From Bacteroidota bacterium (GTDB taxonomy: Bacteria; Bacteroidota; Bacteroidia; Chitinophagales; Chitinophagaceae), in contig JAUZOD010000002.1 of assembly GCA_030706635.1 (NCBI GenBank), positions 62,001-126,000 on the forward strand: a DNA stretch of 64,000 bases, read 5' to 3'. Below are positions 152 to 56,047 of the stretch, one piece after another; position 1 is the first letter of the stretch, and the number at the start of each line of letters is the position of its first letter. The notes under the pieces are model-generated. The model did not search any database, was not told the DNA's origin, and saw only the letters and a program-made list of their open reading frames with translations. A program made the translations under genes and the position numbers.

Positions 152-192
152 CAATGGACAATTGTCAACTGTCCGTTGCCAACTGTCCATTG
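152..192. repeat. Heptad-unit inverted repeat overlapping the symporter stop codon (copy 1)
   Basis: CAATGGACA (152-160) is the exact reverse complement of TGTCCATTG (184-192). Inside it, 162-169 pairs with 175-182 apart from one mismatch, so the element can form a long hairpin with a 5-base loop. Read left to right it splits into 7-base units such as CAATGGA, CAATTGT, CAACTGT, CAACTGT. The stop codon of the symporter (165-167, minus strand) lies inside the left arm, so the last residues of the transporter (about DNGQLATDS) are encoded by the repeat. It probably acts as a terminator; no T-run follows. It belongs with the elements at 18459-18580, 29320-29409 and 55950-56047. Confidence 0.75.
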
Positions 193-1637
193 TCAGCCCT
201 GTACGAGGCCAAAAAAAGCCCAACAAAAGTAATCAGTCCGTTAATTACCAGAAGCTCGAGGCCGATATGAAATTTTCCGCCAAACAGGGTATCCTGGTAT
301 CTGTCCAGCAGAAAGCAAAGCAGGGGTGATAATATACAAATCAAAGGGACCCAGCGGCCATGCAGCTGTCTTTTGGTAAGAATGGAAAAAGAAAACAAAC
401 CCAGCAGGGGGCCGTAGGTGTAAGCCGCCACTTTCAGGATGATGCCGATCATGCTGTCGCTCGAAATCCATTTGTATACAAGAACGAACAAAAGGAACAC
501 GAACACAAATACGAGATGGACCCTTTGGCGGATCTTCTTTTTTTGCGCTTCCGGAAGGCTTTTATTCCGCTGAATGCCGAGAATGTCTATACAGAACGAT
601 GAGGTAAGGGCGGTAATTGCACCATCCGAGCTCGGGAACAGGGCCGAGATGAGCGCAATGATAAAGATGATGGAAATGTACCTGGGCATATGGTGCAGTG
701 CCAGTTCGGGAAAAAGATTGTCGCCTGTCAGGTTCAGATTTTCCGCGGCGGCGAAAAGGTGCAGTAATCCACCAAGAAAAAGAAAAAGAAAGATCACAAA
801 CAACATAATGAACCCCAGCACGACCATATTTTTTTGCGAATCTTTTAGTGTTCTGACAGAAATACTTTTCTGCATCATCTCCTGATCCATACCCGTCATG
901 GTAACGGTGATGAACATGCCGGCGAGGATCTGTTTCAGGAAAAATAATTTACTGTTGGGATCCGTGAAAAAGATTTTCGAATAGCCTTTGGTATGCAGGG
1001 CTTCCATGGCGCCACCCAGGTTCAGATTCAAATGATGCAGAATATAGACCACACAAATCACCATCCCGCCCAGCATACAAGTCGTTTGCAGGGTGTCAGT
1101 CCACACGATGGTTTTCACGCCCCCCTCATAGGTGTACAAAAGGATCATCAGGAGAATGATCAGGGTAGTAAGCCAGAACGGCACATGAAAATCCGAAAGG
1201 ATGGCGACCTGCAGAATATTCACCACAAGATATAAACGGGCGGTTGCACCCAGTACCCTGGACAGGATGAAAAAAGAAGCACCGGTTTTATAAGCACTGA
1301 CACCGAGGCGCTCCTGAAGATAATTATAGATGGAGGTGAGTTGAATCCGGTAATAGAGCGGAAGCAGCACGAAAGCAATCAGGATATATCCGATAAAATA
1401 ACCCAGGGTGATCTGGAAATAGGCAAATGATTCTCTGGATACGGCGCCCGGCACACTCACAAACGTAACGCCCGACAAAGAAGTGCCGATCATTCCAAAT
1501 GCCACGAGCATCCAGTTGGAATTCCGGTTGCCAATAAAAAAGGATTCATTGTCTGAACCCTTTGACGTGCGCCAGGCAACCGCCAGCAGCAGGATAAAAT
1601 ATGCAACTACAAATGTGAATAATAATGCTGGAGACAT
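165..1637 (-). CDS. Sodium:solute symporter (SSS family)
   Basis: A 490-residue polytopic membrane protein. It has about 13 hydrophobic helices, beginning MSPALLFTFVVAYFILLLAV, and SSS-type loops such as GMIGTSLSGVTFVSVPG near residue 50 and FPSSDGAITALTSSFCID near 330, where the family binds Na+ and substrate. Length fits the family (450-550). SSS transporters couple Na+ entry to uptake of sugars, amino acids, carboxylates or sialic acid; the substrate here is not readable from sequence. The start is the ATG at 1635-1637. It is transcribed divergently from the LOG gene across 84 bases. The last nine or so residues are encoded by the heptad repeat at 152-192, suggesting that the repeat arrived in or grew into the 3' end and supplied a new stop codon. 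Confidence 0.9.
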   Translation of the reverse strand: MSPALLFTFVVAYFILLLAVAWRTSKGSDNESFFIGNRNSNWMLVAFGMIGTSLSGVTFVSVPGAVSRESFAYFQITLGYFIGYILIAFVLLPLYYRIQLTSIYNYLQERLGVSAYKTGASFFILSRVLGATARLYLVVNILQVAILSDFHVPFWLTTLIILLMILLYTYEGGVKTIVWTDTLQTTCMLGGMVICVVYILHHLNLNLGGAMEALHTKGYSKIFFTDPNSKLFFLKQILAGMFITVTMTGMDQEMMQKSISVRTLKDSQKNMVVLGFIMLFVIFLFLFLGGLLHLFAAAENLNLTGDNLFPELALHHMPRYISIIFIIALISALFPSSDGAITALTSSFCIDILGIQRNKSLPEAQKKKIRQRVHLVFVFVFLLFVLVYKWISSDSMIGIILKVAAYTYGPLLGLFSFSILTKRQLHGRWVPLICILSPLLCFLLDRYQDTLFGGKFHIGLELLVINGLITFVGLFLASYRADNGQLATDS

Positions 1638-1721
1638 GTGAGGAGGCTAAATTAGTGATTGAAAATTAGGAAATACAATATTAAAAATTCAATTTTAGTT
1701 TTCTGAAAGGAACAACATCTT

Positions 1722-2261
1722 ATGGATATCGAATCGGTAGCGGTCTTTTGCGGGTCCCACGAAGGGAATAATCCGGTCTATGCAGAACAGGTTAAAGAAT
1801 TGGGCAAGCTATTGTGCATGCTCAGGATTAAATTAATCTATGGGGGCGGTCACAAAGGCCTGATGGGCATTCTGGCAGATTCGGTACTCCGGCATGAAGG
1901 CCATATCATGGGCATCATTCCCCAACTACTCATTGAATCCGAACAACAACATAAGGGGCTTACGGAAATGGCCGTTGTCCCGGATATGCATACCCGGAAA
2001 AAAATGATTTATGAACGCTGCGATGCGGTAATTGTGTTGCCTGGTGGTTTTGGTACGATGGACGAGTTGTTTGAAATTCTGACCTGGAACCAGTTAAAGA
2101 TCCACGACAAAAAAATTTATATACTCAACTCCGAAGGATTCTACAATCATCTGCAAAAGCACATCAACCTCGCAAAAAAGGAGGGATTCCTGCCCGCAGA
2201 ATCGGTCGATAAAATCTTTTTCTGCAACACCCCGGTGGAGCTTTTCAACAAGATCAGCTAA
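1722..2261 (+). CDS. LOG-family protein (TIGR00730-type Rossmann fold, nucleoside 5'-monophosphate phosphoribohydrolase)
   Basis: A 179-residue cytoplasmic protein with the LOG-family signatures: VFCGSHEGNNP near the N-terminus, YGGGHKGLMG (about 40-50), the Arg/Lys pair in HTRKKMIYE, and the catalytic PGGFGTMDELFE motif (about 106-117, PGGxGTxxE). Characterised members cleave the N-glycosidic bond of nucleoside 5'-monophosphates (cytokinin riboside monophosphates in plants and some bacteria; AMP or pyrimidine nucleotides in others). Length is typical. The ATG at 1722 follows GAAAGGA by about 10 bases. The stop codon overlaps that of the converging barrel gene by 4 bases, leaving no room for an intergenic terminator. 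Confidence 0.9.
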   Translation: MDIESVAVFCGSHEGNNPVYAEQVKELGKLLCMLRIKLIYGGGHKGLMGILADSVLRHEGHIMGIIPQLLIESEQQHKGLTEMAVVPDMHTRKKMIYERCDAVIVLPGGFGTMDELFEILTWNQLKIHDKKIYILNSEGFYNHLQKHINLAKKEGFLPAESVDKIFFCNTPVELFNKIS

Positions 2262-2815
2262 AACCCGATATTATATCCCAAACCGTAAACAGCCTGGTGG
2301 TAATAAGGCGACCACATGTTTTGAATTACATCATATAGAATGCTGATCGTTATGGCTCCGCGTCCTGCAGGTATGGCTGCGCCTCCACCCAGTAAAAGAG
2401 AAGGGACAAACTGTGTGGGTATCTTGGTGGAAGTCTGTTCGGCGCCATAGTATCTGATATTTCCCCATAGATAATTTAATTCAGGTTGGGCCTGAATAAA
2501 AAACTGTCTTATGGGATAGAACCGGCCAAACACATTCATCCCCGCATAACTCTGGGAATATTTCAACTGGTCATACGTGTCGTTATATCCGTAATGGACA
2601 TAATTCACGCCTACCCCCGCGGCAACCTGGTCTGTGAAATGATAACCGATCTGGGGAGAAACATTAATGATGGTATAGGTTCCAAAGTTCAACCCGAAAT
2701 TTCCGCCGCCGAATAATCTGGACTTATCAAACCCCTGAGGCGAATCAGTTTGTTGTGCTGCAATAAACTGGGTAAAACCCAAAGCGAATACAAATACACA
2801 TCCAATTCTTTTCAT
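2258..2815 (-). CDS. Small outer-membrane beta-barrel protein
   Basis: A 185-residue protein. It starts MKRIGCVFVFALGFTQFIAAQ, a clear Sec signal peptide with cleavage expected after about residue 20. The remainder alternates short amphipathic strands rich in Gly and aromatic residues (FGGGNFGLNFGTY, AAGVGVNYVHYGY, VFGRFYPIRQFFIQAQPELNYLWG) and ends in GYNIGF, a terminal aromatic residue as expected for BamA-dependent barrels. This is the pattern of the 8-stranded PorT/OmpX-like barrels common in Bacteroidota. No enzymatic motif is visible and no specific function can be assigned. It converges on the LOG gene with a 4-base stop-codon overlap. Confidence 0.75.
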   Translation of the reverse strand: MKRIGCVFVFALGFTQFIAAQQTDSPQGFDKSRLFGGGNFGLNFGTYTIINVSPQIGYHFTDQVAAGVGVNYVHYGYNDTYDQLKYSQSYAGMNVFGRFYPIRQFFIQAQPELNYLWGNIRYYGAEQTSTKIPTQFVPSLLLGGGAAIPAGRGAITISILYDVIQNMWSPYYHQAVYGLGYNIGF

Positions 2816-2909
2816 ATTTTGAATATTATCGTGAAGTTCAAATTTTTATACTGCTGATCTTTAAGCGGTGGGTTAAAAAGCTGTTATTTATGACCGGGAC
2901 AACAAAAAA

Positions 2910-3989
2910 CTAATTCTTGAATGTGGGACATAGAGACTGGTGACGGTCTCCATTGTATTCAGAATAATCTCCCGGCCGGATAACGGCAAATTCCCAGGCG
3001 CCGTTTCCATTGTTGTATTGTTTAAGGGAAGAAGTGGTCACATCATAAGTAAACATCAGGCGGATGTTTTTATAAACAAAACCGACCATGGGAATAACCG
3101 ATTCGTTTACCCGGTAGTACAAACCACCGATCAGTTGCTGATCTCCATCTCCAGATAAATTATACTGAATATTTAAACCGGCTACTGCTTCTGATGCTCC
3201 GGCCTGATTGGTATAATAACCCATGGGATTGATGATCACCTGGTCACTGGTCTTAAAACTGGAATTGATGAATCCTATAAATCTCGGCTGAATCCGGTCA
3301 TCAAAACCCACTTCCTTGGAACTGAAAAATGATTCCCTGGGTTGATTGAAGTGCTGAACGGAAAAGCCGACGTTAATGTATTTATTTTTATCGGGGAAGT
3401 AAGCATAATTCATTCCCACCTGCATATCAAAATAGTTTATGTTGGGCTGGTCGATAAAAACGTTGGAGGTTATTTTAGACGAAAAAAACTGGCCATCAAA
3501 CTGATCCGGGTATCTTAGATTGGCATCGTTGATTCGCTTGTTTACCCAACCGGTATTAAACCCAATGGACAGCAAACTGGAATATCCGAGCATCTGATGG
3601 TAGGCAATAGACCCATAAACCTGGGTGGTGGTAAGGCTGCCCGATCCGGCGACATCTTCTAAAATAGCACCGCCCAAACCGAGCCAGCCCGACTGGATAC
3701 GGTTGCGGAATACCTGTGCGTCTCCCCAAACGCTCATGGTCTTGTAGGGTTCAGCCATAATAGAGGACCACTGGTTGCGATAATTCGCACCGAGACGGTA
3801 GTCGGCATCCGGAATAAATCCTGTATTGGCCGGGTTGGTGGTAAGGGGAGAATTAAACCATTGGGAAAAATGAAGATCCTGAGCTTCCAGTGCAAAGCCC
3901 AGAAACACCTGAAATGTCAAAAGCAGCAATAATTTCCTGATCTGTATCATCGGGACAGAGTTTCTCAAAAGGCTTCGATAAAGATACAT
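2910..3989 (-). CDS. PorP/SprF-family T9SS outer-membrane protein
   Basis: A 359-residue protein. The family hallmark is directly after the signal peptide: AQDLHFSQWFNSPLTTNPANTG, where PorP/SprF proteins read QDPHFSQFY..PL..NPA. The rest is beta-strand rich with repeated aromatic/Gly strands (YFDMQVGMNYAYFPDK, YINVGFSVQHFNQP). PorP/SprF proteins are outer-membrane barrels that help secrete or anchor a partner substrate of the type IX secretion system; in Flavobacterium, SprF partners the adhesin SprB. The ATG at 3987-3989 lies one base after the TAA of the upstream giant adhesin gene, suggesting translational coupling. An ATG at 3948-3950 (MIQIRKLLLLLTF) would give a cleaner signal peptide and is the alternative start. 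Confidence 0.88.
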   Translation of the reverse strand: MYLYRSLLRNSVPMIQIRKLLLLLTFQVFLGFALEAQDLHFSQWFNSPLTTNPANTGFIPDADYRLGANYRNQWSSIMAEPYKTMSVWGDAQVFRNRIQSGWLGLGGAILEDVAGSGSLTTTQVYGSIAYHQMLGYSSLLSIGFNTGWVNKRINDANLRYPDQFDGQFFSSKITSNVFIDQPNINYFDMQVGMNYAYFPDKNKYINVGFSVQHFNQPRESFFSSKEVGFDDRIQPRFIGFINSSFKTSDQVIINPMGYYTNQAGASEAVAGLNIQYNLSGDGDQQLIGGLYYRVNESVIPMVGFVYKNIRLMFTYDVTTSSLKQYNNGNGAWEFAVIRPGDYSEYNGDRHQSLCPTFKN

Positions 3990-3990
3990 C

Positions 3991-6900
3991 TTACCTGATT
4001 AACGTAATATCTCCCCTTCGGGTTGTTTTTCTTCCGTCACTAAAGGTAGCTTCCAGGGTATAGGTATACACATCCATGGGCTGCGGAACACCTTTCCAGG
4101 TGCCGTCCCAGCCATAATAAGGCGTATTCGACTGAAAAACCACTTGTCCCCACCGGTTATAGATCTTCCAGTCCATGCTTTCGATGCCAAATCCCCTCAC
4201 CATAATGATACTGTTTTGCCCAAAACGACCCGGTGTAAAGGCATTTGGCACGTCCAGCAGGGAGTTGATGAGCACGTCTACATTGTGGCAAACCGTATCG
4301 GTGCAGCCAAACGGATTATATGCAAACAGACAGGCATTATAAGACCCGGTTTCAGGGTACTGATGCTTAACCGTATCTGCAGAAAACTTATCCGTCGAAT
4401 CCCCATCTCCAAAGTAATAGGTGTAATGGGTAGCCCCTATGGAACTATTCACGAAAACGGTCGGAACATTGTACTCCGGTGGAATCGGCTGGGTGCTGAA
4501 AGAGGCTATAGGCTTTGAATGCACCTGAACGGTTCGCGTGGTGGAATCACGGATATTGCAGGTTCCCGGATCAATGACCAGCAATGAAACGGTGTAGGAG
4601 CCTGTGTCCGCATAGAGGTGGGTGGGATTTACGTCGGTAGAAGTGGTTCCGTCGCCAAAGTTCCAGAAGAATTGCTGACCGGCCAGACTGGTATTATTGA
4701 AAAACGCATTATAAGGAGCGCATCCGTCGGGGATCTCAAATTGGGCTTTGACCAGTGGTGAAACCCGCAGATCCTTGGTCAGGCTGTCGGGGTAATTGCA
4801 ATAGCTGGTATCCAGCAGGATAAGTCGCACAGGATAGGTTCCCGCAGCCGCGTAGGCGTGGGTAACGCTGTTGGCGCCGGAAATCCGGGTCCCGTCTCCA
4901 AAATCCCAGGTGAAGCCGTCCGGCATAAAGGGTTTACCCGGAGGGGCAGTGGATGTATTATCGAATTGAAAGTTGAGTGACTCGCAGGGTGGTAATTTGG
5001 TAATATTAAAATCCAAGATGGCCTTATCGGTGCGCACCCGAATATTCAGATAGGCCGTATCGCTTACATTGCAGGAATTGGAATCAATGGCAATGAGCCG
5101 CACACGGAAAGTGCCTGTTGCGTTATACGTATGGTTGAGCTGGTAAGCAGTAGTGCTGGAATCGGGCGTGCCATCACCGAAATTCCAGATATATTGTTTG
5201 GCGTTATGCAGGGTATCTACAAATAACACGTCGAGGGGTACACAACCTGAACTATCGTAATGCCCATTGATGAGGGAACGCGGATCGGCGGACACGCCGG
5301 CGAAACTAAAAGCGATCTTGACGGCTGCCATATTACAACCCTCGCCCCCGGTTCCGTTTCGCGGCGACCATACGCCCGGCGTGGTTGGGAAAGGCGTCAG
5401 GCTGCGCGCGCCACAATTCGCACAAATTGCCTGGTAAATGATCCCGTTCTGGTCGTAACGGCTCGTGCCGCCATCTACGTGTTCACTGACACTTTGGGGA
5501 CCATCATTCTGACCGAAATACGTGGCATACAAGAGAGCTGAGGCGTTCTTCTGAATAACGATAAAATAAAAGTCTCTTCCGTCGGTTGTTTTTTTTATTG
5601 CGGAAGGCGACACCGGCATGCCTGATGTTCCACTGAGACCATAGGGATCTTTGCTTGCGAAAAGCCACCCACCCCAACCGGAAACATAGACGTTCTCACA
5701 ACGGTCCACTAAAAAAGCAACGGGAGAAATATTCGGATTGGGTGAGGCTTTCCCGAAAGTGGTGGAATAAACGTACTGAGAAAGGTCCGGCATCAGTTTG
5801 GCGACAAATTGTTTTGCCCCGACATTGATAAAACCTACATTGGCCGTGGTGGCCCAGGCTCCCGTAGTGGACCCCATCACATAAGGAAATCCATGTTTAT
5901 CGAATTCAAGTCCGTAAATAGCATCAAATCCATTGGTGCCCAGATAAGTTGTCTTTCGAAGGGTGGATCCATCGCTGCTGATGATGGATATATAAGCGTC
6001 ACAAATCCCCCCGGAATAGGTTGGTTGAATTGAACCTGTTTTTGTGCCGGGAAAATCTGCGTTGCTGGAAGTAGCTCCCGCCACATACAGGTCACCGTTG
6101 GCGGGATTGATTTTTAAAACAAAGCATGCATCAGTTTGCGAACCGCCCAGATAACTCGCAAAAATCAGGTTTTTGCAGTCAGGAGACAATTTTACAATAA
6201 CGCCATCCTGATCCCCGCCACCAAAGGTTGGCTGAAACACGCCTGGCGTAATGGGAAAGTCTTTATCGGAACGGGTGCTGGCGGCGATATAAATATTGTT
6301 GGACGCATCAAGAATCACTTCACTCCGGGAGTCATCTCCGTAATTTCTAATCAGCGACATGGCTTCTTCCGGGGCTTCTCCGTTTAGCTGATCCTTTACG
6401 TTTACGCAATCATATTTGCTGCCGCCAATCCTGGCTGATCCGATGATGTTATTTCCGGAGGCGTTGAGTTTAACCACAAACATCTCGCAGCCACCAGGTG
6501 TGCCGAAAGTATTCTGAAAAGGGAAATCCGTGGAATAGGTCCTGCCCATAACCACCAGGTTTCCCTGCGCATCAGAAATCATACTATGGGGGCATTCTTC
6601 CTGGTTTCCCCCGATATATGTGGCATATAACCGGTTTCTCCCGTTACTGCTGAGCTTAATGATGCCTACATCGTATTTCCCGCCCTGAAAACTTCCCTCA
6701 AATGCACCTGGCGATACCGGGAAGCCATCCCCGAAAACGATCCCCCCGGCAAAAAAGGTTCCGTCTGGTCCGGGAGTTGCCGTAAAACCCCAGTTCGTTT
6801 CCCTGCTTCCCGAAAACGTGGAGAATATCAGCGTCGGGTCTATCACCAGTATGCGGCTGTTGTTGTAATGTTTTATGTCGAAACGGACGGTTCTGTCATT

Positions 6901-7614: not shown

Positions 7615-7710
7615 AATTTTATTTTATAATAACGTAAAACAAATCAGGTTAGATCAAATGAGTTTGTTAAAAAAAGGCAATCCTTTTCCGCCCATCAGTA
7701 CAGCACTTTT

Positions 7711-17263: not shown

Positions 17264-18465
17264 ACATACTCAGTCACATATCTTATTTCATCAGCGGCTT
17301 CCTCTTTATTTACCTGGCGGCGAATACGGCTTATCTTTTTGTAATTGCTATTTGCGGACGACTGATTTCCGGAAAGAAATTTGCCACTCATCCGGATAAG
17401 AAGAAGATCGCGGTTCTGATTCCCTGTTATAAGGAGGATCTGATTATTACGGATACCGCTCTGCGTGCTGCGGGCCATGACTATCCGAAAGACCGGTTTA
17501 CGGTAATCGTTATAGCAGATAAGCTTAAGCCGGCTACGTTAACCAGGCTAAGGCAGATACCGGTGCAGGTGCTCGAAGTGGATCTGAATATGAAATCACG
17601 CTCCCTGCACGCCGGCCTCGAGGCCCTTAGGGGAACGGATACTGAGATTGTGATGATTCTGGACGCGGATAATATCATGGGCCCGGAATGTCTTGAAAAA
17701 GTGAATTCCGCTTTCCATAGCCATTGTCTGGCTGTTCAATGTCACCGTACGGCAAAAAACAAAAACACGTCAATTGCGTGGCTTGATGCGATGAGCGAAG
17801 AGATCAATATCAATCTTTTTCGCAGAGGACCAGCCGCGCTGGGATTATCGGCCGCTCCGATCGGTTCCGGAATGGCCTTTGATTTCACTTTGATCAGGGA
17901 TATATTTTCCACAGCGGAAATACTTCAGAATCCGGGAGAAGACCGTGAAATTGACATGCAACTCATGTTTCGTAAGATTAAAATGGAATTTATTGATGAG
18001 GCCATGGTTTACGATGAAAAAGTAGCCAGTGAAATGGTTTTTGAAAAACAGCGGGTTCGTTGGCTGGAGGCGCAGGTGAATCACCTGCGAAGGTTTTTTC
18101 ATGGAGATATGAAAGCAGCCCCGAAGACCATTCTCTATTATAATAAGTTCTTTCAGAATCTGCTGTTGCCGCGTATACTCACGCTGACAGTTTTTTGTCT
18201 TATTATTATTTTGCTGCTGATTCAGGCCCTGTTGCCGGTCCATATTCTTTTTCCCGGAAGGCCGGTCTGGATCGGACTGATGAGCGTTTATTTTTTTGCT
18301 CTCTTTATCTCCATACCCGGCGTCTTTTACAGCATGAACACCCTCAGTGCCCTGGGTCAACTGCCGGTATTGATGCTTGCGATGATCAGGGCATTAATGC
18401 AAATCAAAAAAAAGCGCACAGAATTTATTCATACGCCGAAGACATTTAAGGAGGGAGAGAATTGA
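17260..18465 (+). CDS. Membrane glycosyltransferase, family 2 (BcsA/chitin-synthase-like fold)
   Basis: A 401-residue protein. Residues 5-35 form an N-terminal membrane helix, then a GT-A domain with IAVLIPCYKED, ILDADN (metal-binding D-x-D, about 135), GEDREIDMQL (acceptor-side acidic residues) and QRVRW (the QxxRW motif of processive enzymes). Three hydrophobic stretches follow (about 305-380). This is the layout of family-2 enzymes that link synthesis to membrane translocation. It is the last gene of the five-gene overlapping operon beginning at 13697, so it may use or modify the pentose lipid made by that operon. Classical DPA-dependent transferases are GT-C enzymes, however, so the donor is uncertain. 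The stop codon TGA lies inside the left arm of the inverted repeat at 18459-18580. Confidence 0.82.
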   Translation: MNILSHISYFISGFLFIYLAANTAYLFVIAICGRLISGKKFATHPDKKKIAVLIPCYKEDLIITDTALRAAGHDYPKDRFTVIVIADKLKPATLTRLRQIPVQVLEVDLNMKSRSLHAGLEALRGTDTEIVMILDADNIMGPECLEKVNSAFHSHCLAVQCHRTAKNKNTSIAWLDAMSEEININLFRRGPAALGLSAAPIGSGMAFDFTLIRDIFSTAEILQNPGEDREIDMQLMFRKIKMEFIDEAMVYDEKVASEMVFEKQRVRWLEAQVNHLRRFFHGDMKAAPKTILYYNKFFQNLLLPRILTLTVFCLIIILLLIQALLPVHILFPGRPVWIGLMSVYFFALFISIPGVFYSMNTLSALGQLPVLMLAMIRALMQIKKKRTEFIHTPKTFKEGEN

Positions 18466-18580
18466 CGATGGACAGTTGACAGTGGATAATGAAAGGCAGT
18501 TTGAAAATGGATTTTTGCAAATTATTATTTCTCTACTTAGGCAGACCCTTTCTGAATTGTCAACGGTCCATCGTCAATTC
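18459..18580. repeat. Stop-codon-anchored inverted repeat between convergent genes (copy 2)
   Basis: The 24 bases at 18459-18482 match the reverse complement of 18557-18580 at 22 of 24 positions, with 74 bases between. The left arm is built from 7-base units (TTGACGA, TGGACAG, TTGACAG, TGGATAA). The stop codon of the upstream plus-strand glycosyltransferase (18463-18465) and that of the minus-strand one (18574-18576) are the same TGA at positions 5-7 of each arm. The transcript from either side can form a long stem, so a bidirectional terminator or mRNA 3'-end stabiliser is likely. Confidence 0.8.
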
Positions 18581-19494
18581 TCAACGGACGCACTGGAATG
18601 TACCAAATTGTACCCAACGCCTTTCAGGAACCATTTGATCTGTAGAAACTGTCCGTTTAGCAGAAACGAGATGATTGCTTTCGGCATGGAGAAGAACGTG
18701 AAGAACAGAAAAAATACAAGTAATTGAAGGGGATTGCTGTTTCGCCGCATAAACAATATCCTGTTCCGGGCATGGTAGTAAACTTTCACCGGATTATCTT
18801 TTCCGACGCTCAACGATACTTTGTGATAGATGGTCGCTGCGGCCTGGTACCATATAATATAGCCTGCTTTTTGGATGCGTGCGGACCAGTCCCATTCTTC
18901 ATAATAAAGGAAGAATTTCTCGGGAAACAGGCCTGTCTTTTCAATGACTTCTTTTTTGACCATCATGGCGCAACCATGTGCCGCGTAGGTGGGGCCGGAA
19001 ACAGGATATTGACCAACATCCTGTTCCATATCTCCGACGGTTGCCGTTCTGCCGGTAAATCGATTCATGGGCCGGAATCCCGCATACTGGATGACGTCGG
19101 GATGTTCGAAGTATTTAATTTTTGGACAGACTACTCCGATTGCGGGACTCTCATAAAAAGGTTGCAGCATCAAGCGGATCAGATCCGGGGTCAGTTCGGT
19201 GTCATTGTTCACGATGAAAATAAAATCGCCCTTCGCCTGGCGAATTCCCCAATTATTACCCCCGGAAAATCCCAGGTTTTTGTCGCTGAGCAGCAACCGG
19301 GTATTCGGGTAGTCGGACGCACGGAAAGCCGTTTCCGGTGAAATGGAAGAAGCCATGTCGCAGACCAGGATCTCGTAGTTCCGGTAATTAAGGCTTTTGC
19401 TGGATTCCAGGAATTCGCGGGTAACCTGAGCCTGATTGTAGTTCAGTGTGATAATCGAAACCAGGGGTTCCTTTTCCGGGAAGCTCGCATTCAT
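18574..19494 (-). CDS. Glycosyltransferase family 2 (rhamnosyltransferase-like)
   Basis: A 306-residue protein. GT-A features: PLVSIITLNYNQ (about 9-20), LLLSDKNLGFSGGNNWGI (about 70-90), FIVNNDTEL (D-x-D variant NND, about 100), ARIQKAGYIIWYQ and IYHKVSLSVG. It resembles the WbbL/rhamnosyltransferase group that extends lipid-linked polysaccharide repeats at the inner face of the membrane. A C-terminal hydrophobic segment (LQLLVFFLFFTFFSMPKAIISFLL) suggests membrane attachment. The ATG at 19492-19494 has no alternative nearby. It is separated from the sugar transferase gene by 40 bases on the same strand. The final codons and stop lie in the right arm of the inverted repeat at 18459-18580. 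Confidence 0.85.
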   Translation of the reverse strand: MNASFPEKEPLVSIITLNYNQAQVTREFLESSKSLNYRNYEILVCDMASSISPETAFRASDYPNTRLLLSDKNLGFSGGNNWGIRQAKGDFIFIVNNDTELTPDLIRLMLQPFYESPAIGVVCPKIKYFEHPDVIQYAGFRPMNRFTGRTATVGDMEQDVGQYPVSGPTYAAHGCAMMVKKEVIEKTGLFPEKFFLYYEEWDWSARIQKAGYIIWYQAAATIYHKVSLSVGKDNPVKVYYHARNRILFMRRNSNPLQLLVFFLFFTFFSMPKAIISFLLNGQFLQIKWFLKGVGYNLVHSSASVEN

Positions 19495-28976: not shown

Positions 28977-29321
28977 ATGAGGCTTTTTTACCTTGTTATA
29001 TTTATGGTGTTTTGTTCGGTAACCCAGGTTAAAAGCCAAAACCGGACGCCCGGGTTTCCTGACCCAGAAACGGTGGCTACGGTTCGTTTTTACCCCAACC
29101 CCGCCTCTTCTTATATTACTTTCGACCTGCTCAAGAATTACGGTAAAAACTACAGCATCCAGGTATTCAATTTCCTGGGAAAAAAAGTGTATGAATTTTC
29201 TGCGGAAGACCAGAAGACTGTCGTTAACCTGACCGATTTCTTCCGTGGCATTTATATTTTCCAGCTCAAAGATCCCAATGGAAAAATTGTGGAGTCGAAT
29301 AAGTTTCAGGTAAACAAATAA
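28977..29321 (+). CDS. Minimal T9SS type A sorting-domain protein
   Basis: A 114-residue protein from the ATG at 28977 (MRLFYLVIFMVFCSVTQVKSQ; a TTG six bases earlier is less likely). After the signal peptide there are only about 14 residues, then a complete type A sorting domain: VRFYPNPASSYITFDL, YSIQVFNFLGKKVYEF, GIYIFQLKDPNGKIVESNKFQVNK. This domain normally sits at the end of large T9SS cargo; here it is almost the whole protein, so the exported product would have no separate cargo. Such small proteins occur in Bacteroidota, but I know of no function. The gene ends at the inverted repeat 29320-29409. Confidence 0.8.
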   Translation: MRLFYLVIFMVFCSVTQVKSQNRTPGFPDPETVATVRFYPNPASSYITFDLLKNYGKNYSIQVFNFLGKKVYEFSAEDQKTVVNLTDFFRGIYIFQLKDPNGKIVESNKFQVNK

Positions 29322-29409
29322 ATGTGAAAATGTGGAAATGTGCTGATGTGTAAATGAGATGCACTATGTTCCCGTTCTCCCATTAGCACATTTCCACATT
29401 TTCACATTT
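29320..29409. repeat. Stop-codon-anchored inverted repeat between convergent genes (copy 3, octad units)
   Basis: The 29 bases at 29320-29348 match the reverse complement of 29381-29409 at 28 of 29 positions, with 32 bases between. Each arm is built of 8-base units (AAATGTGA, AAATGTGG, AAATGTGC, TGATGTGT). The left gene's TAA (29319-29321) overlaps the first two bases of the element. The right gene's TGA (29402-29404, minus strand) is inside the arm. It very likely forms a long hairpin ending transcription from both sides. Confidence 0.82.
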
Positions 29410-47905: not shown

Positions 47906-47912
47906 AATTTGT

Positions 47913-49039: not shown

Positions 49040-49189
49040 GGATGTTTTTTGAGACACAAAAGATCGCATTTTATCCTGATTGGAAAAAATCATTCGCAGG
49101 ATGGGACGCCGGCTTACAGGGAAAGGTTACACCCGGTCCGGGGCAATGAAAACCCGTGATCGGGTTGAACAAACCCCAAATCCTTTCTT

Positions 49190-49197
49190 TATCTTTG
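49190..49197 (+). promoter_or_regulatory. guaA -7 promoter element, 7 bases before ATG
   Basis: TATCTTTG fits TAnnTTTG and is followed by CC as in other promoters here. TTG at 49165-49167 is 22 bases upstream, within the accepted 17-23 range. The ATG begins at 49205, so transcription should start a few bases before it or at it, implying a leaderless or nearly leaderless mRNA. Confidence 0.6.
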
Positions 49198-49204
49198 CCA
49201 CTCC

Positions 49205-50737
49205 ATGACTGAAAAGATTCTAATCCTCGATTTCGGTTCCCAGTATACCCAGTTAATAGCCCGTTCCGTTCGCGAAGCCAATGTGTACTGCGAGATCATT
49301 CCCTATCATCAAAAGATCAACCCGGACCCTTCCGTCAAAGGGATTATTCTTTCCGGTTCGCCGTCTTCGGTGAATGACAAGACCGCGCCCCTGGTGGACG
49401 TTAAGGCCATACATCATTCCCTGCCCATCCTGGGTATTTGTTACGGGGCACAGCTCACCGCCCGTGAATTCGGTGGAAAAGTGGCTAGCAGCAGCAAGCG
49501 GGAATATGGAAGAGCCCTGCTGAGCAAAGTAAAAGAAGATGTGCTGCTTCAGGATGTGAGCAACCTGAGCCAGGTGTGGATGAGTCACGCGGATACTATT
49601 CTTGAGTTGCCTGCGGGTTTTGATGTGCTGGCCACAACGGAATCAATTCCCTATGCGGCATTTAAAAATAATGGGGAAGGATTCCCTTTATATTGTCTGC
49701 AATTCCATCCGGAAGTCTATCATACCATCGAGGGGAAAAAGATCATCCGCAATTTTCTGGTGGAAGTATGTAAATGTTCGCAGGACTGGACGCCGGCTCA
49801 TTTCATTAACGACACGGTGGAGCAACTGAAAAATAAGATCGGGAAAAAGAAAGTGATCATGGCGTTGAGCGGGGGAGTGGATTCCACCGTTGCAGCTACG
49901 CTGATACACAAGGCCATCGGTAAAAGATTGTCCGGGATTTTTGTTGATAACGGAGTACTGCGCAAAAATGAATTCCAGGAAGTGCTCGATGCTTACAAAC
50001 GCATTGGCCTCAATGTGCTCGGCATTGATGCAAAGAAAATATTCTACAAAAAATTAAAGGGCAAAACGGATCCTGAGGAGAAACGCAGGACGATAGGAAA
50101 ATTGTTCATTAAAATTTTCCTGAGGGAAGCAGAAAAGCTCGATGGTATTGATTTGCTGGGTCAGGGTACCATCTACCCGGATGTTATTGAAAGTGTTTCC
50201 GTACACGGCCCTTCCATGACCATCAAATCCCATCACAATGTAGGTGGCCTTCCCAAAAAGATGAAACTCGGTCTGGTGGAACCGCTCCGCTTTTTATTTA
50301 AAGATGAAGTAAGAAGGGTTGGTAAAGAGCTCGGTATTCCCGAAGATCTGTTACAGCGTCATCCGTTTCCAGGTCCGGGCCTCGCCATCCGCATCCTTGG
50401 CGAAGTGAACCCGGAAAAAGTAAAATTATTGCAGCAGGCTGATCATCTTTATACCCAGGCGCTGAAAGATCATAAACTGTATGGCAGCGTCTGGCAGGCG
50501 GGTGCTATTTTATTGCCTGTTAAAAGCGTTGGCGTCATGGGCGATGAACGCACCTATGAATATACCCTGGCCCTGCGTGCAGTTACCTCGGTAGACGGGA
50601 TGACGGCTGACTGGGCTCACCTTCCGTATGATTTCCTGGCGCAGATTTCAAGTGATATCATCAACCAGGTAAAGGGAATTAACCGGGTGGTGTATGATAT
50701 CAGCAGCAAACCGCCGGCCACCATCGAATGGGAATAA
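49205..50737 (+). CDS. guaA: GMP synthase (glutamine-hydrolysing)
   Basis: A 510-residue protein of normal length. The amidotransferase domain (1-195) has [18 protein letters not shown], the nucleophile Cys79 in GICYGAQL, and FHPEVYHT. The ATP-pyrophosphatase domain has [14 protein letters not shown] (PP-loop, about 222), [33 protein letters not shown] and [12 protein letters not shown], then the dimerisation domain ending KPPATIEWE. It converts XMP to GMP in the cytoplasm. The -7 element at 49190 is almost at the start codon. Confidence 0.97.
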
Positions 50738-50787
50738 ATTCCGGATGTTTAATACGATCCAGCGCATAATAAAATAAAAATAATCGG

Positions 50788-51966
50788 ATGAAATATACCG
50801 GTGCTTTATTATTTAGTTTAGTATTCCTGGCCTGCGGGTATTCAACATCTTTTGCACAAACGATGTCTGCCCGGTATCATGTGGCTGTTTTTCTCCCGCT
50901 CTATCTCGATTCTGCTTTCGATGCTTCGGGTAATTACCGTTTTGATCAGAATTTTCCTAAATACATCAGCCCGGGATTGGAATTTTACGAGGGATTGGAG
51001 CTGGCCATGGATTCCCTTGAAAAAGCCGGAAGCCAGCTGGATGTAACGATTTATGATACACGCTCTGCAGCCAAAAGCCTTCAACAGGTGCTGGATGAAC
51101 CCGTTTTTGATTCCACGGCATTGATCATCGGAATGGTTAATCTCACCGAACTGCGGTTGCTTTCCCGCGAAGCGAGGGCAAAAGGCATCCCCTTTATTAA
51201 TGTGAATTTTCCGAATGATGGGGGCATTACCAATAATCCGCAGTTTGTTATTCTGAATTCAACTTTAAAATCACATTTTGAGGCTTTGTACAAATTCATC
51301 CAGCGAAACTGGGCCACGTCCAATATTATTTATCTGAGAAGAAAGGGCGCTCAGGAAGACCAGATCCAAAATGATTTTGCAGAAATTGAAAGAAATACCC
51401 TTTCGGTACCACTTCATATGAAGTACGTCAACATTGAGAATCCCGCGGATCCGGGGCAATTTTTGCCTTATCTGGACAGCAACACAAAAACCATTGTGCT
51501 GGTGGGAAGCCTGGACGAGAACTTTGGCCGGCAGGTTTGCACACAACTGGCCTCGTTGTACAAAACCTATAAAACAAAGGTATTTGGCATGCCTACCTGG
51601 GACGGCATTGATTTTTCCGGCACCGAATATACGGATGAGGAAATATACTATACAACACCCTTTTACAGTAATCCGAATGACAGCCTGGTTTCCTCGATTC
51701 AGCAATATTTTAAGACACGCTTCTATTCCCGGCCATCGGATATGGTTTACAGGGGATATGAATCCATGCTCCATTTCGGTCAGTTGCTGGCGGATCACCA
51801 GGGCAGGCTTAACGGAAGCATTGGGGAAAGAAAATTCAAGGTTTTCAATGACTTTGATATACAACCTGTTTTCCTGAATAAACAGAATCCAACCCTGGAT
51901 TATCTGGAGAACAAGAAGCTTTACTACATCAAGAAGGTCAATGGCAACGTTGTTGCAGTATATTAA
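50788..51966 (+). CDS. Type 1 periplasmic-binding-fold protein (LivK-like)
   Basis: A 392-residue protein with signal peptide MKYTGALLFSLVFLACGYSTSFAQ. The mature part follows a Rossmann-like two-lobe pattern of type 1 binding proteins: YHVAVFLPLYLDS, FYEGLELAMDSLEKAGSQLDVTIYDTRS, ALIIGMVNLTELRLLSREARAKGIPFINVNF, KTIVLVGSLDENFGRQVC and VFGMPTWDGIDFSG...EIYYTTPFYS. In Bacteroidota this fold is often fused to LysM domains; no LysM is present here, and no ABC transporter gene is adjacent. The ligand is unknown. It could be a cell-envelope sensor or binding protein. It follows guaA by 50 bases on the same strand. Confidence 0.72.
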   Translation: MKYTGALLFSLVFLACGYSTSFAQTMSARYHVAVFLPLYLDSAFDASGNYRFDQNFPKYISPGLEFYEGLELAMDSLEKAGSQLDVTIYDTRSAAKSLQQVLDEPVFDSTALIIGMVNLTELRLLSREARAKGIPFINVNFPNDGGITNNPQFVILNSTLKSHFEALYKFIQRNWATSNIIYLRRKGAQEDQIQNDFAEIERNTLSVPLHMKYVNIENPADPGQFLPYLDSNTKTIVLVGSLDENFGRQVCTQLASLYKTYKTKVFGMPTWDGIDFSGTEYTDEEIYYTTPFYSNPNDSLVSSIQQYFKTRFYSRPSDMVYRGYESMLHFGQLLADHQGRLNGSIGERKFKVFNDFDIQPVFLNKQNPTLDYLENKKLYYIKKVNGNVVAVY

Positions 51967-52019
51967 ACAACAACTTTTCTTAATTTTAATGTTCGGGTTA
52001 TTTCGCCTGGAAATGATTT

Positions 52020-53402
52020 ATGAAAAAACTCCTGGTGATTTTCGGATTTGCCGTTCTGGGTCTGGCGTTTACTTCAACGATATTCCCATCAGCGGGCGAG
52101 CAGCCGGTCCCCATTCCCCCGAGCAAACAAAGAACGGGTGATGCAGAAACGGGGTTTACTTATCTGACTACGGGAGATTATCTGAAAAGCGGGATTCCGC
52201 TGTCCTATTTCAGGATGATGTTTAGGAAAAACTCAGCGAACTATCTGAAGCGCGAAGGAGAAAACAAAGAAATTCCTTACGATTATACGGCAGTCAGGGC
52301 GACCAACGGTGAAATGGTTGTGGCTCCGAATTGCCTTCAATGCCATGCGCAGGTTTTTGATGGAAAGCTCATCATCGGTTTAGGAAACAGTACGGTTGAT
52401 TTCACGCAAAGCCAGAAGCTGGACCCGAAAAATGCAGCTGCAGCGGAAAAACTATTGAAAAATGTGGATCCGAAAAAATATGAAGCGGCAGAACCATTTC
52501 TGAGGGTGGTGAAAGCCGTAGGCGCGAAATTAACTACACAGGTCAGGGGAGTAAATATTGCTGATCGTTTGGCAGCCCTGCTGGTCAGTCACCGTGATCC
52601 CAATACCTTTCGCTGGAGCGATTCGGCTTTGTTACAGGTTCCTGACGAGGTTATTCCGACGGATGTACCGCCCTGGTGGCTTTTATGGAAGAAAAATGCG
52701 ATGTTCTACAACGGATTCGGGCGTGGAGATTTCGGCAGGTTTCTGATGGCATCCAATCTGTTTACGGTTAACGATACATCTGAGTCACGGGAAGTGGACA
52801 GCCATTTTAACGATGTCCTGGCCTATATTCAATCGCTCCGCCCACCGCCTTACCCAAAGCAACTGAACAAATCCCTCGTTAAAGAAGGGGGCGTTTTATT
52901 TGTGCGGAACTGTTCAAAATGTCATGGCAGTTATGGCAACGGTGAAAAATATCCCAACCTGCTGATCCCCGAAACGGTGATCCGGACCGATTCCCTTTTA
53001 TTCAAAAGCAATTACCAGAGTCCCCAGTTTGTTGCCTGGTTCAACAGTTCCTGGTTTTCTCAGGGAGATCATCCGGCCAGGCTGGAGCCTTTTGACGGAT
53101 ACATCGCTCCGCCTTTGGATGGGATCTGGATCACGGCGCCTTATCTGCACAATGGGTCTGTTCCTGATCTGGAGACCCTGCTGAACAGCAAGGAAAGACC
53201 CAAATACTGGTCCCGCGATTTTGACGATCCTCAGTACAATTACGAAGATCCGGGATGGAAATACCAGGTTCGCACTGCTCCGGAGGGAACTTCCGTGTAC
53301 AATACCACGCTACCGGGATATGGAAATTACGGGCATACCTTTGGAGACAAACTCAGCAAGCGGGAAAGAAAAGCCATCATCGAATATCTGAAAACATTGT
53401 AG
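52020..53402 (+). CDS. Di-heme c-type cytochrome (RoxA/MauG-like superfamily possible)
   Basis: A 460-residue protein. An N-terminal signal/anchor (KKLLVIFGFAVLGLAFTSTIF) is followed by two heme-attachment motifs: CLQCH (105-109) and CSKCH (298-302). Two Met-poor linkers and a late segment GYIAPPLDGIWITAPYLHNGSVPDLETLL, typical of cytochrome c peroxidase/MauG/RoxA superfamily members (YLHNGSVP), are visible. It is therefore a periplasmic redox protein; an oxygenase or peroxidase role is possible, but the catalytic residues cannot be confirmed by eye. It lies 53 bases after the binding protein gene and 39 bases before the helicase on the same strand. Confidence 0.85.
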   Translation: MKKLLVIFGFAVLGLAFTSTIFPSAGEQPVPIPPSKQRTGDAETGFTYLTTGDYLKSGIPLSYFRMMFRKNSANYLKREGENKEIPYDYTAVRATNGEMVVAPNCLQCHAQVFDGKLIIGLGNSTVDFTQSQKLDPKNAAAAEKLLKNVDPKKYEAAEPFLRVVKAVGAKLTTQVRGVNIADRLAALLVSHRDPNTFRWSDSALLQVPDEVIPTDVPPWWLLWKKNAMFYNGFGRGDFGRFLMASNLFTVNDTSESREVDSHFNDVLAYIQSLRPPPYPKQLNKSLVKEGGVLFVRNCSKCHGSYGNGEKYPNLLIPETVIRTDSLLFKSNYQSPQFVAWFNSSWFSQGDHPARLEPFDGYIAPPLDGIWITAPYLHNGSVPDLETLLNSKERPKYWSRDFDDPQYNYEDPGWKYQVRTAPEGTSVYNTTLPGYGNYGHTFGDKLSKRERKAIIEYLKTL

Positions 53403-53441
53403 GCCGCGGGCAATTTAAATTCGCCGGAAAGATTTCATTTC

Positions 53442-55955
53442 ATGTCATTACAGCATTCCAGGGGATATCAGGTGGTTCTTGCATGGTTCGAATCAAAAGG
53501 ACTAACGCCGTTTGTATTCCAGGAAGAAACCTGGCAGCATATCGTACAGGGTCATTCGGGCCTGGTGAATGCGCCAACCGGATGCGGTAAAACATTTGCT
53601 GTTTTCCTGGGATCGGTGATCAACTTCATCAATGAAAATCCGCAGGAATATAAAACCAGGTCCGGAAATCGATTACAGCTCTTGTGGATAACCCCGCTCC
53701 GCGCGCTGGCAAAAGACATCGGCAGGGCCATGACGGAAGTGGTGGAGGAACTGGGTCTGAAATGGAAAATCGGCATACGCAACGGAGATACGGAAATCAC
53801 CGAACGGGAAAAACAGAAGAGGCAAATGCCGGAGGTGCTGATCATTACTCCGGAGAGCCTTCATCTGTTACTCGCCCAAAAAAATTATCCGGAAATTTTT
53901 AAAAAGCTCAGGACGCTGGCCGTTGATGAATGGCATGAATTGCTGGGATCCAAAAGAGGCGTGCAGGTGGAGTTGGCGGTGTCCCGGATTGCGCATCTCA
54001 TGGAAACTTACCATCCGGCGTCAGAAAAAACATTCCCACTTTCTGTTTGGGGTATTTCTGCAACCATCGGAAACCTGGATCAGGCACAGGAAGTTTTGTT
54101 ATCTCCCCTGTTATCTAAAATACATCACCCGCCGGTAATTGTGAAAGCGTTGATTGATAAGCGCATTGACATTGAGTCAGTGCTTCCGGAAGAAATAGAA
54201 AAATATCCCTGGGCGGGTCACCTCGGAATTAAATTGGTTCATAAAGTAATTCCCATTATTGAAAAAAGCCGTACCACACTGATCTTCATTAATACGCGGG
54301 GAATGAGTGAACGCTGGTATCAGGAAATCCTGAATGTAGCGCCCCACCTGGCCGGCGCCGTGGCGCTACACCACGGCTCGATCGACCGTGAGCTGCGTTT
54401 GTGGGTGGAAGAAGCCCTGCACAGCGGGAAGCTGAAAGCCGTTGTTTGTACAGCAAGCCTGGATCTGGGGGTTGACTTCCGGCCGGTGGAAACGGTGATA
54501 CAGGTCGGATCACCCAAAGGAGTTGCCCGCTTTTTGCAAAGAGCAGGGCGAAGCGGCCATCAGCCCGGCGAACAGAGTAAAATTTATTTTCTGCCTACTC
54601 ATTCACTGGAACTGGTGGAAGCTGCTGCGCTGAAAACGGCCATGGGATTGAATTTTATCGAAAGCCGCGATCCGATGATGCTTTGTTTTGACGTATTGAT
54701 CCAGTACCTCGGCACCCTGGCCATCGGAGAAGGTTTTTATCCTGACCCGCTCTTTGAAGAAATTGCTTCCACTTATTGTTTCAGGGATATCACCGAAAAT
54801 GAATGGAATCAAATCCTGCATTTCATCACCGAAGGAGGAGAAGCGCTGCAGCAGTACGACGAATTCCGCAAAGTGGAAGTGATCAGCGGGTTATATAAAA
54901 TAAATGGGAGACGGGTGGCTATGCGGCACCGGCTTCACATCGGAACCATCGTGAGCGATGCCATGATGAAGGTTAAATTTATGAGCGGCGGGTTTATCGG
55001 TGTGATTGAAGAATATTTTATTTCACGATTAAAACCCGGCGATGTCTTTACCCTTGCCGGACGCAACCTGGAATTCGTGATGATAAAAGAAATGACGGCC
55101 ATTGTAAAAAAATCCACTGCCCGCAAAGCGATCGTGCCCAGTTGGAACGGAGGGCGTATGCCCCTGTCCGCCAATCTGGGCCTCATGCTGCGTAAAAAGT
55201 TTAACGAGGCCTGGCTGGTCGCGGAAGGGAAAATGGTGCCGGATGTTGAATTGCGCGCTTTAAAACCCCTGTTTGAACTGCAACAGCAACTCTCTCACAT
55301 TCCGAAAGAAGATGAGTTGCTGATTGAACAGATCGAAACGGCCGATGGATTTCACCTGTTCGTATATCCTTTCGAAGGGCGTTTGGTTCATGAGGCGATG
55401 GCAGCCTTGCTGGCTTTCCGGATCAGTCGCATTACACCGATTACTTTTTCTTTTGCGATGAATGACTATGGATTCGAACTTTTGAGTGATCAGCCCATCC
55501 CGGTAGACGACAGTAATGTGTACGAACTTTTTTCTGTGAATGAGCTGAGCCTGGACATTCAGCGCAGCGTAAACGGTGCAGAAATGGCCCGCCGGAAATT
55601 CCGGGATATTGCCGTGATCGGCGGACTTATTTTCCAGGGTTACCCGGGAGAACATAAAAAAACAAGGCACCTGCAGTCATCCGCCGGGCTGCTCTTCAAT
55701 GTATTCAGTGAATACGATCCGCATAATTTATTGCTGAGACAGGCCCATCACGAGGTGATGGAACAGCAGATGGAAGAGGGCCGCCTGCGGAATATGCTCG
55801 AGCGCGTCGGGAAGAGCCGGATCGTTATTGTATTTCCGCAGAGACTTACACCTTTTTGTTTTCCTTTGAAAGTGGACAGCATGCGGGAAGATCTTTCTTC
55901 TGAAAAGCTCGAGGACCGGGTAAAAAAAATGCAGCAGCAGTTAAGTAAGGGTTGA
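53442..55955 (+). CDS. Ligase-associated DNA damage response DEXH-box helicase (Lhr-like)
   Basis: An 837-residue protein. Helicase motifs: Q-motif region FVFQEETWQHIVQGHSG, Walker A NAPTGCGKTFAVF (about 42-54), LWITPLRALAKDI, ITPESLHLLL, the DEWH box LAVDEWHELLG (about 160), GISATIGN, FINTRGMSERWYQEIL, VCTASLDLGVDF and QRAGRSGHQPGE. The C-terminal Lhr-type region follows (GGFIGVIEEYFISRLKPGDVFTLAGR, FPQRLTPFCFPLKVD). This is the helicase of the four-gene ligase/exonuclease/helicase/PdeM set found in many bacteria. Only the helicase and PdeM are here. Its stop codon lies in the heptad repeat at 55950-56047. Confidence 0.92.
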   Translation: MSLQHSRGYQVVLAWFESKGLTPFVFQEETWQHIVQGHSGLVNAPTGCGKTFAVFLGSVINFINENPQEYKTRSGNRLQLLWITPLRALAKDIGRAMTEVVEELGLKWKIGIRNGDTEITEREKQKRQMPEVLIITPESLHLLLAQKNYPEIFKKLRTLAVDEWHELLGSKRGVQVELAVSRIAHLMETYHPASEKTFPLSVWGISATIGNLDQAQEVLLSPLLSKIHHPPVIVKALIDKRIDIESVLPEEIEKYPWAGHLGIKLVHKVIPIIEKSRTTLIFINTRGMSERWYQEILNVAPHLAGAVALHHGSIDRELRLWVEEALHSGKLKAVVCTASLDLGVDFRPVETVIQVGSPKGVARFLQRAGRSGHQPGEQSKIYFLPTHSLELVEAAALKTAMGLNFIESRDPMMLCFDVLIQYLGTLAIGEGFYPDPLFEEIASTYCFRDITENEWNQILHFITEGGEALQQYDEFRKVEVISGLYKINGRRVAMRHRLHIGTIVSDAMMKVKFMSGGFIGVIEEYFISRLKPGDVFTLAGRNLEFVMIKEMTAIVKKSTARKAIVPSWNGGRMPLSANLGLMLRKKFNEAWLVAEGKMVPDVELRALKPLFELQQQLSHIPKEDELLIEQIETADGFHLFVYPFEGRLVHEAMAALLAFRISRITPITFSFAMNDYGFELLSDQPIPVDDSNVYELFSVNELSLDIQRSVNGAEMARRKFRDIAVIGGLIFQGYPGEHKKTRHLQSSAGLLFNVFSEYDPHNLLLRQAHHEVMEQQMEEGRLRNMLERVGKSRIVIVFPQRLTPFCFPLKVDSMREDLSSEKLEDRVKKMQQQLSKG

Positions 55956-56047
55956 CGGTTGACGGATGACGGTTGACTGAGTTTGTGTGGATCATCACGA
56001 TAAAAAATTATCATGGTGCTGCATTGGAAGACGGTCAACCGTCAACC
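55950..56047. repeat. Heptad-unit inverted repeat at the helicase stop codon (copy 4)
   Basis: GGTTGACGGTTGAC (55950-55963) is the exact reverse complement of GTCAACCGTCAACC (56034-56047), with 70 bases between. The left side continues as a tandem array of 7-base units GGTTGAC, GGTTGAC, GGATGAC, GGTTGAC. The helicase stop (55953-55955) is the first TGA of the array. An A/T-rich inner stretch (about 55997-56010) may add a small hairpin. It lies between two same-strand genes just before the PdeM promoter. Confidence 0.8.

Follow-up and report, generated by a model that had tools for sequence, protein, structure and literature searches.

Four gene junctions in a 64,000-nucleotide stretch of a Chitinophagaceae genome (hereafter the window; assembly GCA_030706635.1, contig JAUZOD010000002.1, positions 62,001 to 126,000) carry palindromes with arms built from tandem units of 7 or 8 bp, which raises the question of what such elements are and what they do at the ends of genes. 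They belong to a class of high copy number in which unlinked copies are related and many share conserved cores; its members lie at gene 3' ends, are present or absent at orthologous junctions of a relative, and are inherited at junctions while their units change. We consider it fairly probable that the class comprises two dispersed non-coding palindromic families, with 7-bp and 8-bp arm units around often conserved cores, that are like repetitive extragenic palindromes (REPs) without being REPs and that perhaps act as 3'-end hairpins.

Periodic palindromes in the genome

The window is part of a 4.58-Mb genome in 162 contigs that is 99.93% complete (G000). By its rlmI-like gene, the closest named records come mostly from Chitinophagaceae. 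We sampled 1,090,309 bases of it, namely the window and stretches L009-L068, eleven of which (L049-L059) were picked for holding the TTGACAG pattern. Arm periods from 5 to 12 were tested, hairpins of low dinucleotide entropy were classed as having no period by a fixed rule (looser in the comparison with a relative below), and genes were called with a custom hexamer caller rather than a standard program. At a score of at least 15 there were 90 inverted repeats, 50 with period 7, 27 with period 8, 3 with period 11 and 10 with none, so that only 7, 8 and 11 were seen among the periods tested; at a score of at least 17 the figures were 47, 23 and 3, with 7 others, for a total of 80. An order-3 Markov control, with one copy per stretch, gave no inverted repeat at a score of at least 15.

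The set of 81 period-7/8 elements used below omits a period-8 hairpin at L022:3412, judged to be a non-tandem chance fit. The elements span 43-268 bp with loops of 3 to 156 bp, about a third of them have 8-bp units, and their density is approximately 50 per Mb (48 elements in the roughly 880 kb that remain once the pattern-picked stretches are set aside). The unit types seen include GTTGACGG-like units, GGTTGAT/GGTATAT/GGTGGAT, AATGGAC/AATTGAC and the 8-bp unit AATGTGNN. Single-linkage clustering by BLAST at a lenient cut-off of 40 bits splits the set into a group of 54 with 7-bp units, a group of 26 with 8-bp units and one single element, the best match between unlinked 7-bp elements being 92% over 74 bp. 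By eye, the loops of many elements hold palindromic cores specific to their class. With at most one mismatch allowed, the 7-bp core AGNTGCGNATTCGCA matches the genome 29 times forward and 23 times in reverse, some of these matches being one palindrome read on both strands, and its reversed control has none in either direction. Because of these families and shared cores, the elements appear to be related repeats that have dispersed, not separate products of local slippage.

Two other kinds of repeat were noted in the same sample. Strong hairpins of 11-bp period at L067:5579-5632, L023:3655-3701 and L056:19392-19475, two of them with small loops, fall in neither family and may be ordinary bidirectional terminators. 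About 13 TTGACAG units form a purely direct array, with no adjoining inverted partner, at about 8680-8770 of L054 (G000:C76:40001-59526), between divergent genes and directly upstream of the minus-strand gene; since elements were searched as inverted repeats, arrays that are only direct are not visible to the search.

The four elements of the window

The window holds the following elements, the elements themselves being without strand:

151..193, no strand: element 1, a 43-bp palindrome of 7-bp units between two minus-strand genes
165..167, minus strand: stop codon of the symporter gene (165..1637), inside element 1
18457..18582, no strand: element 2, 7-bp units, arms 18457-18481 and 18558-18582, loop 76 bp
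18463..18465, plus strand: stop codon of the left glycosyltransferase gene, a TGA supplied by the first TTGAC unit of element 2
18574..18576, minus strand: right glycosyltransferase gene, stop codon located in the right arm of element 2
29320..29409, no strand: element 3, 8-bp unit AATGTGNN, arms 29320-29348 and 29381-29409, loop 32 bp
29319..29321, plus strand: stop codon TAA of the Por_Secre_tail protein gene, its last two bases being the first two of element 3
29402..29404, minus strand: rlmI-like gene, stop codon located in the right arm of element 3
55950..56047, no strand: element 4, 7-bp unit GGTTGAC, arms 55950-55963 and 56034-56047, loop 70 bp
53442..55955, plus strand: ligase-associated DEXH box helicase gene (TIGR04121), its TGA at 55953-55955 supplied by element 4
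56098..56784, plus strand: ligase-associated endonuclease PdeM gene (TIGR04123), downstream of element 4, start as given by the custom caller

Element 1 separates a sodium:solute symporter gene (PF00474; 3' end at 165) from what appears, read by eye, to be the start of the next minus-strand gene on its left. Element 2 lies between two convergent glycosyltransferase genes (assigned by Pfam) and element 3 between the convergent genes for a Por_Secre_tail protein and an rlmI-like PUA/methyltransferase, while the two plus-strand genes around element 4 are also adjacent in the relative described below. The initial annotation, made from this sequence alone, had placed inverted repeats at these four sites with periods of 7, 7, 8 and 7, and the search recovered them there. 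It had also stated that all six flanking 3' ends meet an element, which they do, five stops lying inside and the TAA ending at 29321 (plus strand) overlapping the first two bases. Its description of a design shared without shared sequence holds for the 8-bp element against the others and does not hold among the three 7-bp elements. These are weakly related to the 7-bp family of the genome (best BLAST hits of 51-55 bits) and leave its single-linkage component at a 60-bit cut-off.

Inheritance and turnover at orthologous junctions

In a relative (G006; median protein identity 80%; 830,377 bases sampled), the spectrum of inverted repeats scoring at least 17 is like that of G000, comprising 35 with period 7, 16 with period 8, 4 with period 11 and 5 others. 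Among 106 syntenic junctions, an element was called in both genomes at 8, in G000 only at 5, in G006 only at 3 and in neither at 90. Restricted to the 87 syntenic junctions with a 3' end, the 8 shared elements compare with 1.49 expected (p 9e-7). All eight keep their period class, which would have a chance of about 0.01 under independent re-insertion, and at several of them the units differ (TTGACGG vs TTGATGG; AATGTG vs AATTTG). The proposal that period and symmetry are kept while the sequence drifts is thus upheld, both by these junctions and by 16 loci of other Chitinophagaceae in which the units are mostly different ones.

Two of the five elements called only in G000 (window 29321 and L051:14490) have weaker 8-bp remnants in G006 as judged by eye, and the other three sites are near-empty there, with gaps of 3 vs 64 bp, 18 vs 142 bp, and overlapping genes vs 121 bp. 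Presence or absence at orthologous sites, as expected of a miniature inverted-repeat transposable element (MITE), is therefore observed at these three sites.

Other differences between the two genomes concern the build of individual elements. An additional 7-bp type in G006, AAAAAGT, occurs at L183:2062-2171, L183:17111-17195, L180:2069-2139 and L214:7297-7397, once between NrfD and ActD genes, and is absent from the element listing of G000. At L209:16149-16509 of G006, a TTGACGG arm has more than a dozen units and several copies of the arm follow one another, apparently an expansion; the corresponding junction of G000 carries an element too. The reverse is seen at L049:10333-10440 of G000, where a half-lost element, whole in G006 at L219:11649-11868, adjoins a conserved ordinary terminator (GCCCTC...GAGGGC).

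From these patterns we infer that new copies are made by copying from other copies, that arms lengthen by slippage in steps of 7-8 bp, and that copying from one arm to the other in the DNA may maintain the match between the two arms of an element.

Elements and stop codons

Twenty-five of the 81 elements lie at convergent junctions, 49 at co-directional and 5 at divergent ones, 2 lack a called left gene, and none lies inside a called gene. Without the pattern-picked stretches, 48 elements remain, of which 16 are convergent, 28 co-directional, 3 divergent and 1 lacking a called left gene. The 101 gene 3' ends that face an element are at a median distance of 2 bp from it (43 overlap it, 69 lie within 10 bp and 83 within 20 bp), the 59 facing 5' ends are at a median of 42 bp, and at co-directional junctions the element is closer to the 3' end in 43 cases and to the 5' end in 6. 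The earlier claim of an element class at gene ends is therefore well founded. When elements are placed at random within the free room available to them, 50% of 3' ends fall within 10 bp, compared with the 70% observed, so that the anchoring at 3' ends is in part trivial.

The left arms of the elements carry 9.66 stops per 100 bp on the inward strand and 1.21 on the outward one, 72 elements having more stops inward and 2 more outward; in 21 elements of other Chitinophagaceae, 15 are richer inward and 3 outward. Because left arms are stop-rich inward, an element landing near a gene end supplies a stop. This is what the initial annotation had supposed of the repeat unit, and it can be followed at window position 55955: at the corresponding site of G006, where 18 bp separate the two genes, the helicase protein extends several residues further, so that element 4 has taken over the stop.

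These figures might suggest an element class anchored on stop codons, in which the stop is kept as a functional part, and the overlapping 3' ends, the inward polarity and the take-over at 55955 are all in its favor. Left arms have, however, a composition of 33% G and 8% C, and when unit columns are permuted with period and composition kept, as many stops result (231 observed vs a mean of 227.9; 55 vs 53.5 in the other species; 108 vs 115.6 with one arm per majority unit). The inward polarity is thus compositional, and the common unit ATGGTGG has no stop at all. Together with the closeness already given by random placement, this makes stop anchoring improbable, and the idea that the stop codon is a conserved, selected part of the element is not supported, since arm composition accounts for the number of stops.

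Under the reading of dispersed families that we prefer, most surviving copies would be those just past a stop codon, since insertions that hit coding sequence or promoters would be removed and since the C-poor inward strand bears stops in most elements, so that a copy landing in the last codons would only trim the protein.

Distribution in other species

In eighty named loci around rlmI homologues (475,928 bases), the counts of inverted repeats scoring at least 15 were 13 for period 7, 8 for period 8, 6 for other periods and 14 for no period. The 21 period-7/8 elements come from 16 Chitinophagaceae loci and mostly have other units (GATGTCTG, AGTTGAG, AGTTTAAA and more), a few of them sharing AATGTG or AATTTG. 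They face 29 gene 3' ends, 27 of these within 24 bp. Nine are convergent and 11 co-directional; none is divergent, and 1 lies within a called gene.

Individual units are distributed patchily. Of 147 genomes of the family, 17 contain three exact copies of AATGTGNN in tandem (the reversed control is found in 1) and 22 contain GTTGAYN in three copies, and GTTGACN in three copies occurs in 5 of 118 genomes of a phylum sample in which the genome itself is counted; the reversed control of the GTTGAC/GTTGAY searches is not clean, because the reverse of GTTGACA is its own rotation. In small samples, amounting to 20 stretches from other genomes, none of 10 listed hairpins scoring at least 14 had period 7 or 8 in the stretches from the class and phylum (about 190 kb), one of 4 had period 7 in the order outside the family (61 kb), and none of 7 had either period in other genera of the family (73 kb), all seven coming from a sister genus (G055, L244). 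This last stretch shows a hairpin type of its own, with seven perfect inverted repeats in 20 kb that have non-periodic arms of 14-27 bp and, in six cases, loops of 3-6 bp. One element matched against E. coli genomes gave no match.

The junction of element 3 could be followed across relatives, the rlmI end being readable in 76 of the 80 loci and convergent in 68. Eleven of the 68 have a period-7/8 hairpin, 10 have another hairpin and 47 have none scoring at least 11, which rules out a hairpin as an obligatory feature of this junction.

A bolder account of the same data is that the elements are a Chitinophagaceae 3'-end class conserving solely pairing and the 7-8 bp period, i.e. a self-homogenising palindromic satellite that would spread among gene ends, rewrite both arms together and form a sequence-free, U-less terminator or mRNA end cap replacing ordinary terminators at convergent genes. 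We regard this as possible but rather doubtful.

A possible role at the 3' ends of genes

The elements place a stable stem-loop behind a stop codon, as an intrinsic terminator does, and the initial annotation had proposed that they work as terminators or 3'-end protectors. What supports a role of this kind comes from convergent junctions. Hairpins followed by a T run (-6 kcal/mol or lower) are found at 47 of 118 convergent ends without an element (15% in shuffles) and at 8 of 50 with one (14% in shuffles), and convergent gaps of 60-220 bp hold a strong terminator of this type (-9 kcal/mol or lower) in 19 of 33 cases when no element is present and in 2 of 23 when there is one (p 2e-4). The convergent gap minus the element is also smaller, at 2 bp vs 25 bp at junctions without an element (p 0.001). 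The exclusion is only suggestive, because landing in tight, terminator-less junctions would yield the same pattern.

One possible explanation for the exclusion, and the stable stems of the window's four elements (-19 to -50 kcal/mol) would agree with it, is that these are ordinary bidirectional intrinsic terminators with odd arm sequences. Nevertheless, no T run follows the stems, loops reach 156 bp, unit families and cores are shared among copies and elements also occur inside gene clusters, so that this explanation appears unlikely, if slightly less so than stop anchoring.

If the elements are dispersed palindromes that have acquired a 3'-end job, this might consist in slowing or ending transcription or in blocking 3' exonucleases. 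At convergent pairs, a long stem-loop transcribed from both sides could take the place of a U-tract terminator, and inside operons an element would be a partial terminator at most. Rho utilisation by the C-rich right arm, cruciforms and gyrase sites are further conceivable roles.

A number of observations weigh against our reading. Regarding function, T frequency over the 14 positions behind the stem is 0.23-0.35, compared with 0.30 in an intergenic control, i.e. there is no U tract, and arm mismatches at co-directional junctions do not favor G-U over A-C in the sense RNA (36 vs 39). Strong U-tract terminators are as common at co-directional ends with an element (14% of 49) as at those without (15% of 319), and the rate of elements per 3' end is 0.084 at convergent junctions (25 of 149, each counted with two ends) and likewise 0.084 at co-directional ones (49 of 584). 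Element 4 lies inside the helicase-PdeM cluster, and another element, present in both G000 and G006, lies inside an act-like cluster encoding cytochrome c, an Fe-S protein (weak molybdopterin match), NrfD and ActD; the gene order of act clusters is actA-F. Of the 68 convergent rlmI junctions, 41 lack both a strong hairpin and a U-tract terminator, and among the 11 period-7/8 hairpins 4 also score as U-tract terminators. The terminator role thus emerges with mixed results, the exclusion at convergent ends standing on one side and the missing U tract and G-U signature, the location inside clusters and the lack of exclusion at co-directional ends on the other.

Regarding common descent and mobility, the outer ends of the elements are not fixed and vary with unit number, and elements 1, 2 and 4 of the window do not show the common core. 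At 60 bits or more one group of 47 persists and the 8-bp elements break into small groups, and because of this split the common descent of the 8-bp family rests on simple units and partial cores. No target-site duplication was seen by eye at the three near-empty sites. For a mobilising enzyme, PF01797 (the Y1 family, which includes REP-associated tyrosine transposases, RAYTs) had no match in the 99.93% complete genome, Y1 being the sole helper searched; in a control, the same search matched in 5 of 14 genomes.

Much of this would follow if the elements were neutral or selfish DNA only, generated by slippage and fold-back copying, left by purifying selection in the least harmful places, behind stop codons, and without RNA function. 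Equal rates at both types of 3' end, the lack of a U tract and of a G-U bias, the lack of exclusion with terminators at co-directional ends and the location inside gene clusters are all as this account would have them, as are the similar co-directional gaps minus element (44 bp with an element vs 47 bp without, p 0.82) and the half-decayed copy at L049:10333 next to an ordinary terminator. It fits less well with the smaller leftover gap at convergent junctions, with the excess of junctions shared with G006, where arms are still paired despite changed units, and with the convergent exclusion, which landing in tight junctions could itself explain. A purely neutral origin is a serious possibility in our view, although not the probable one; it stands below the dispersed families with a possible 3'-end role.

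Relation to known repeats

As a dispersed non-coding repeat, the class looks like a known general kind with an unusual build. The nearest comparison is with REPs, including bacterial interspersed mosaic elements (BIMEs) and REP doublets forming hairpins (REPINs) with GTAG or CGTC tags, since both are high-copy extragenic palindromes downstream of genes. According to PMC3733652, REPs are found mainly downstream of genes, with co-directional or convergent ORFs on either side, and their termini often give the stop of the flanking ORF, so that both this habitat and the take-over of stops are already known for another repeat. The present elements differ in their tandem 7-8 bp arms, their units, which vary between species, and their span of 43-268 bp, outside the 20-40 bp of a REP unit, and no shared GTAG/CGTC-like end tag was seen by eye in the element flanks. 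With no Y1/RAYT match, a current REP-RAYT system is not supported. REPs moved by a RAYT would explain the same habitat at co-directional and convergent ends and the supply of stops (PMC3733652), yet the absent PF01797 match, the tandem arms and the greater length of the elements leave this the least probable of the explanations considered here, and very improbable in itself; a past or distant helper is conceivable.

Heptamer tandem repeats are known from cyanobacteria as short tandemly repeated repetitive sequences (STRRs). The TAACTGA repeats of Beggiatoaceae, treated in PMC4679880, which also cites long simple sequence repeats (LSSRs), are likewise 7-bp, tandem and intergenic, occur in five Bacteroidetes too, and sometimes overlap the upstream stop. 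They are, however, direct repeats, most of which lie just before start codons in the genome studied there, with one inverted case in 170 sets, whereas the present elements are inverted pairs at 3' ends, many of them with a core. BrickBuilt, a MITE of Porphyromonas gingivalis, also combines tandem units with a small dispersed intergenic element in Bacteroidota; as described in PMC4596501, its 23-bp minisatellite consists of direct units between short inverted ends, it lies 49-591 bp from genes and has promoter activity, and it does not form a long hairpin at stop codons as the present elements do.

Perfect inverted repeats in bacteria peak 50-80 bp behind stop codons (PMC13155455). Intrinsic terminators and the present elements are both stem-loops behind stop codons, but the latter lie at a median of 2 bp from the stop, are U-less, often have long loops, form repeated families and also occur inside clusters.

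Enterobacterial repetitive intergenic consensus sequences (ERIC, also called intergenic repeat units, IRU), BOX and Correia elements are dispersed intergenic palindromes or mosaics of fixed sequence without tandem 7-8 bp arms, and are set apart here by these general descriptions rather than by sequence comparison. Rfam covariance models gave no match at gathering score in the window, L043, L049, L054 and L056. Among the matches listed, mostly from non-subscription literature, no title or abstract opening described palindromes at gene ends whose arms are 7-8 bp tandem units; nor did passages of PMC4060949 and PMC7366714, the abstract of PMC4666352 or a term search within PMC2267715 reveal this design.

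Significance

In the regions sampled from this genome and from one relative, period-7/8 palindromes are the main class of strong hairpins, and transcript ends in this bacterial family have, to our knowledge, been little mapped. The elements offer two natural tests, one of whether a U-less hairpin can end or cap mRNAs and the other of how a palindrome keeps its arms alike during sequence turnover. They may also explain odd repetitive peptides at the ends of proteins.

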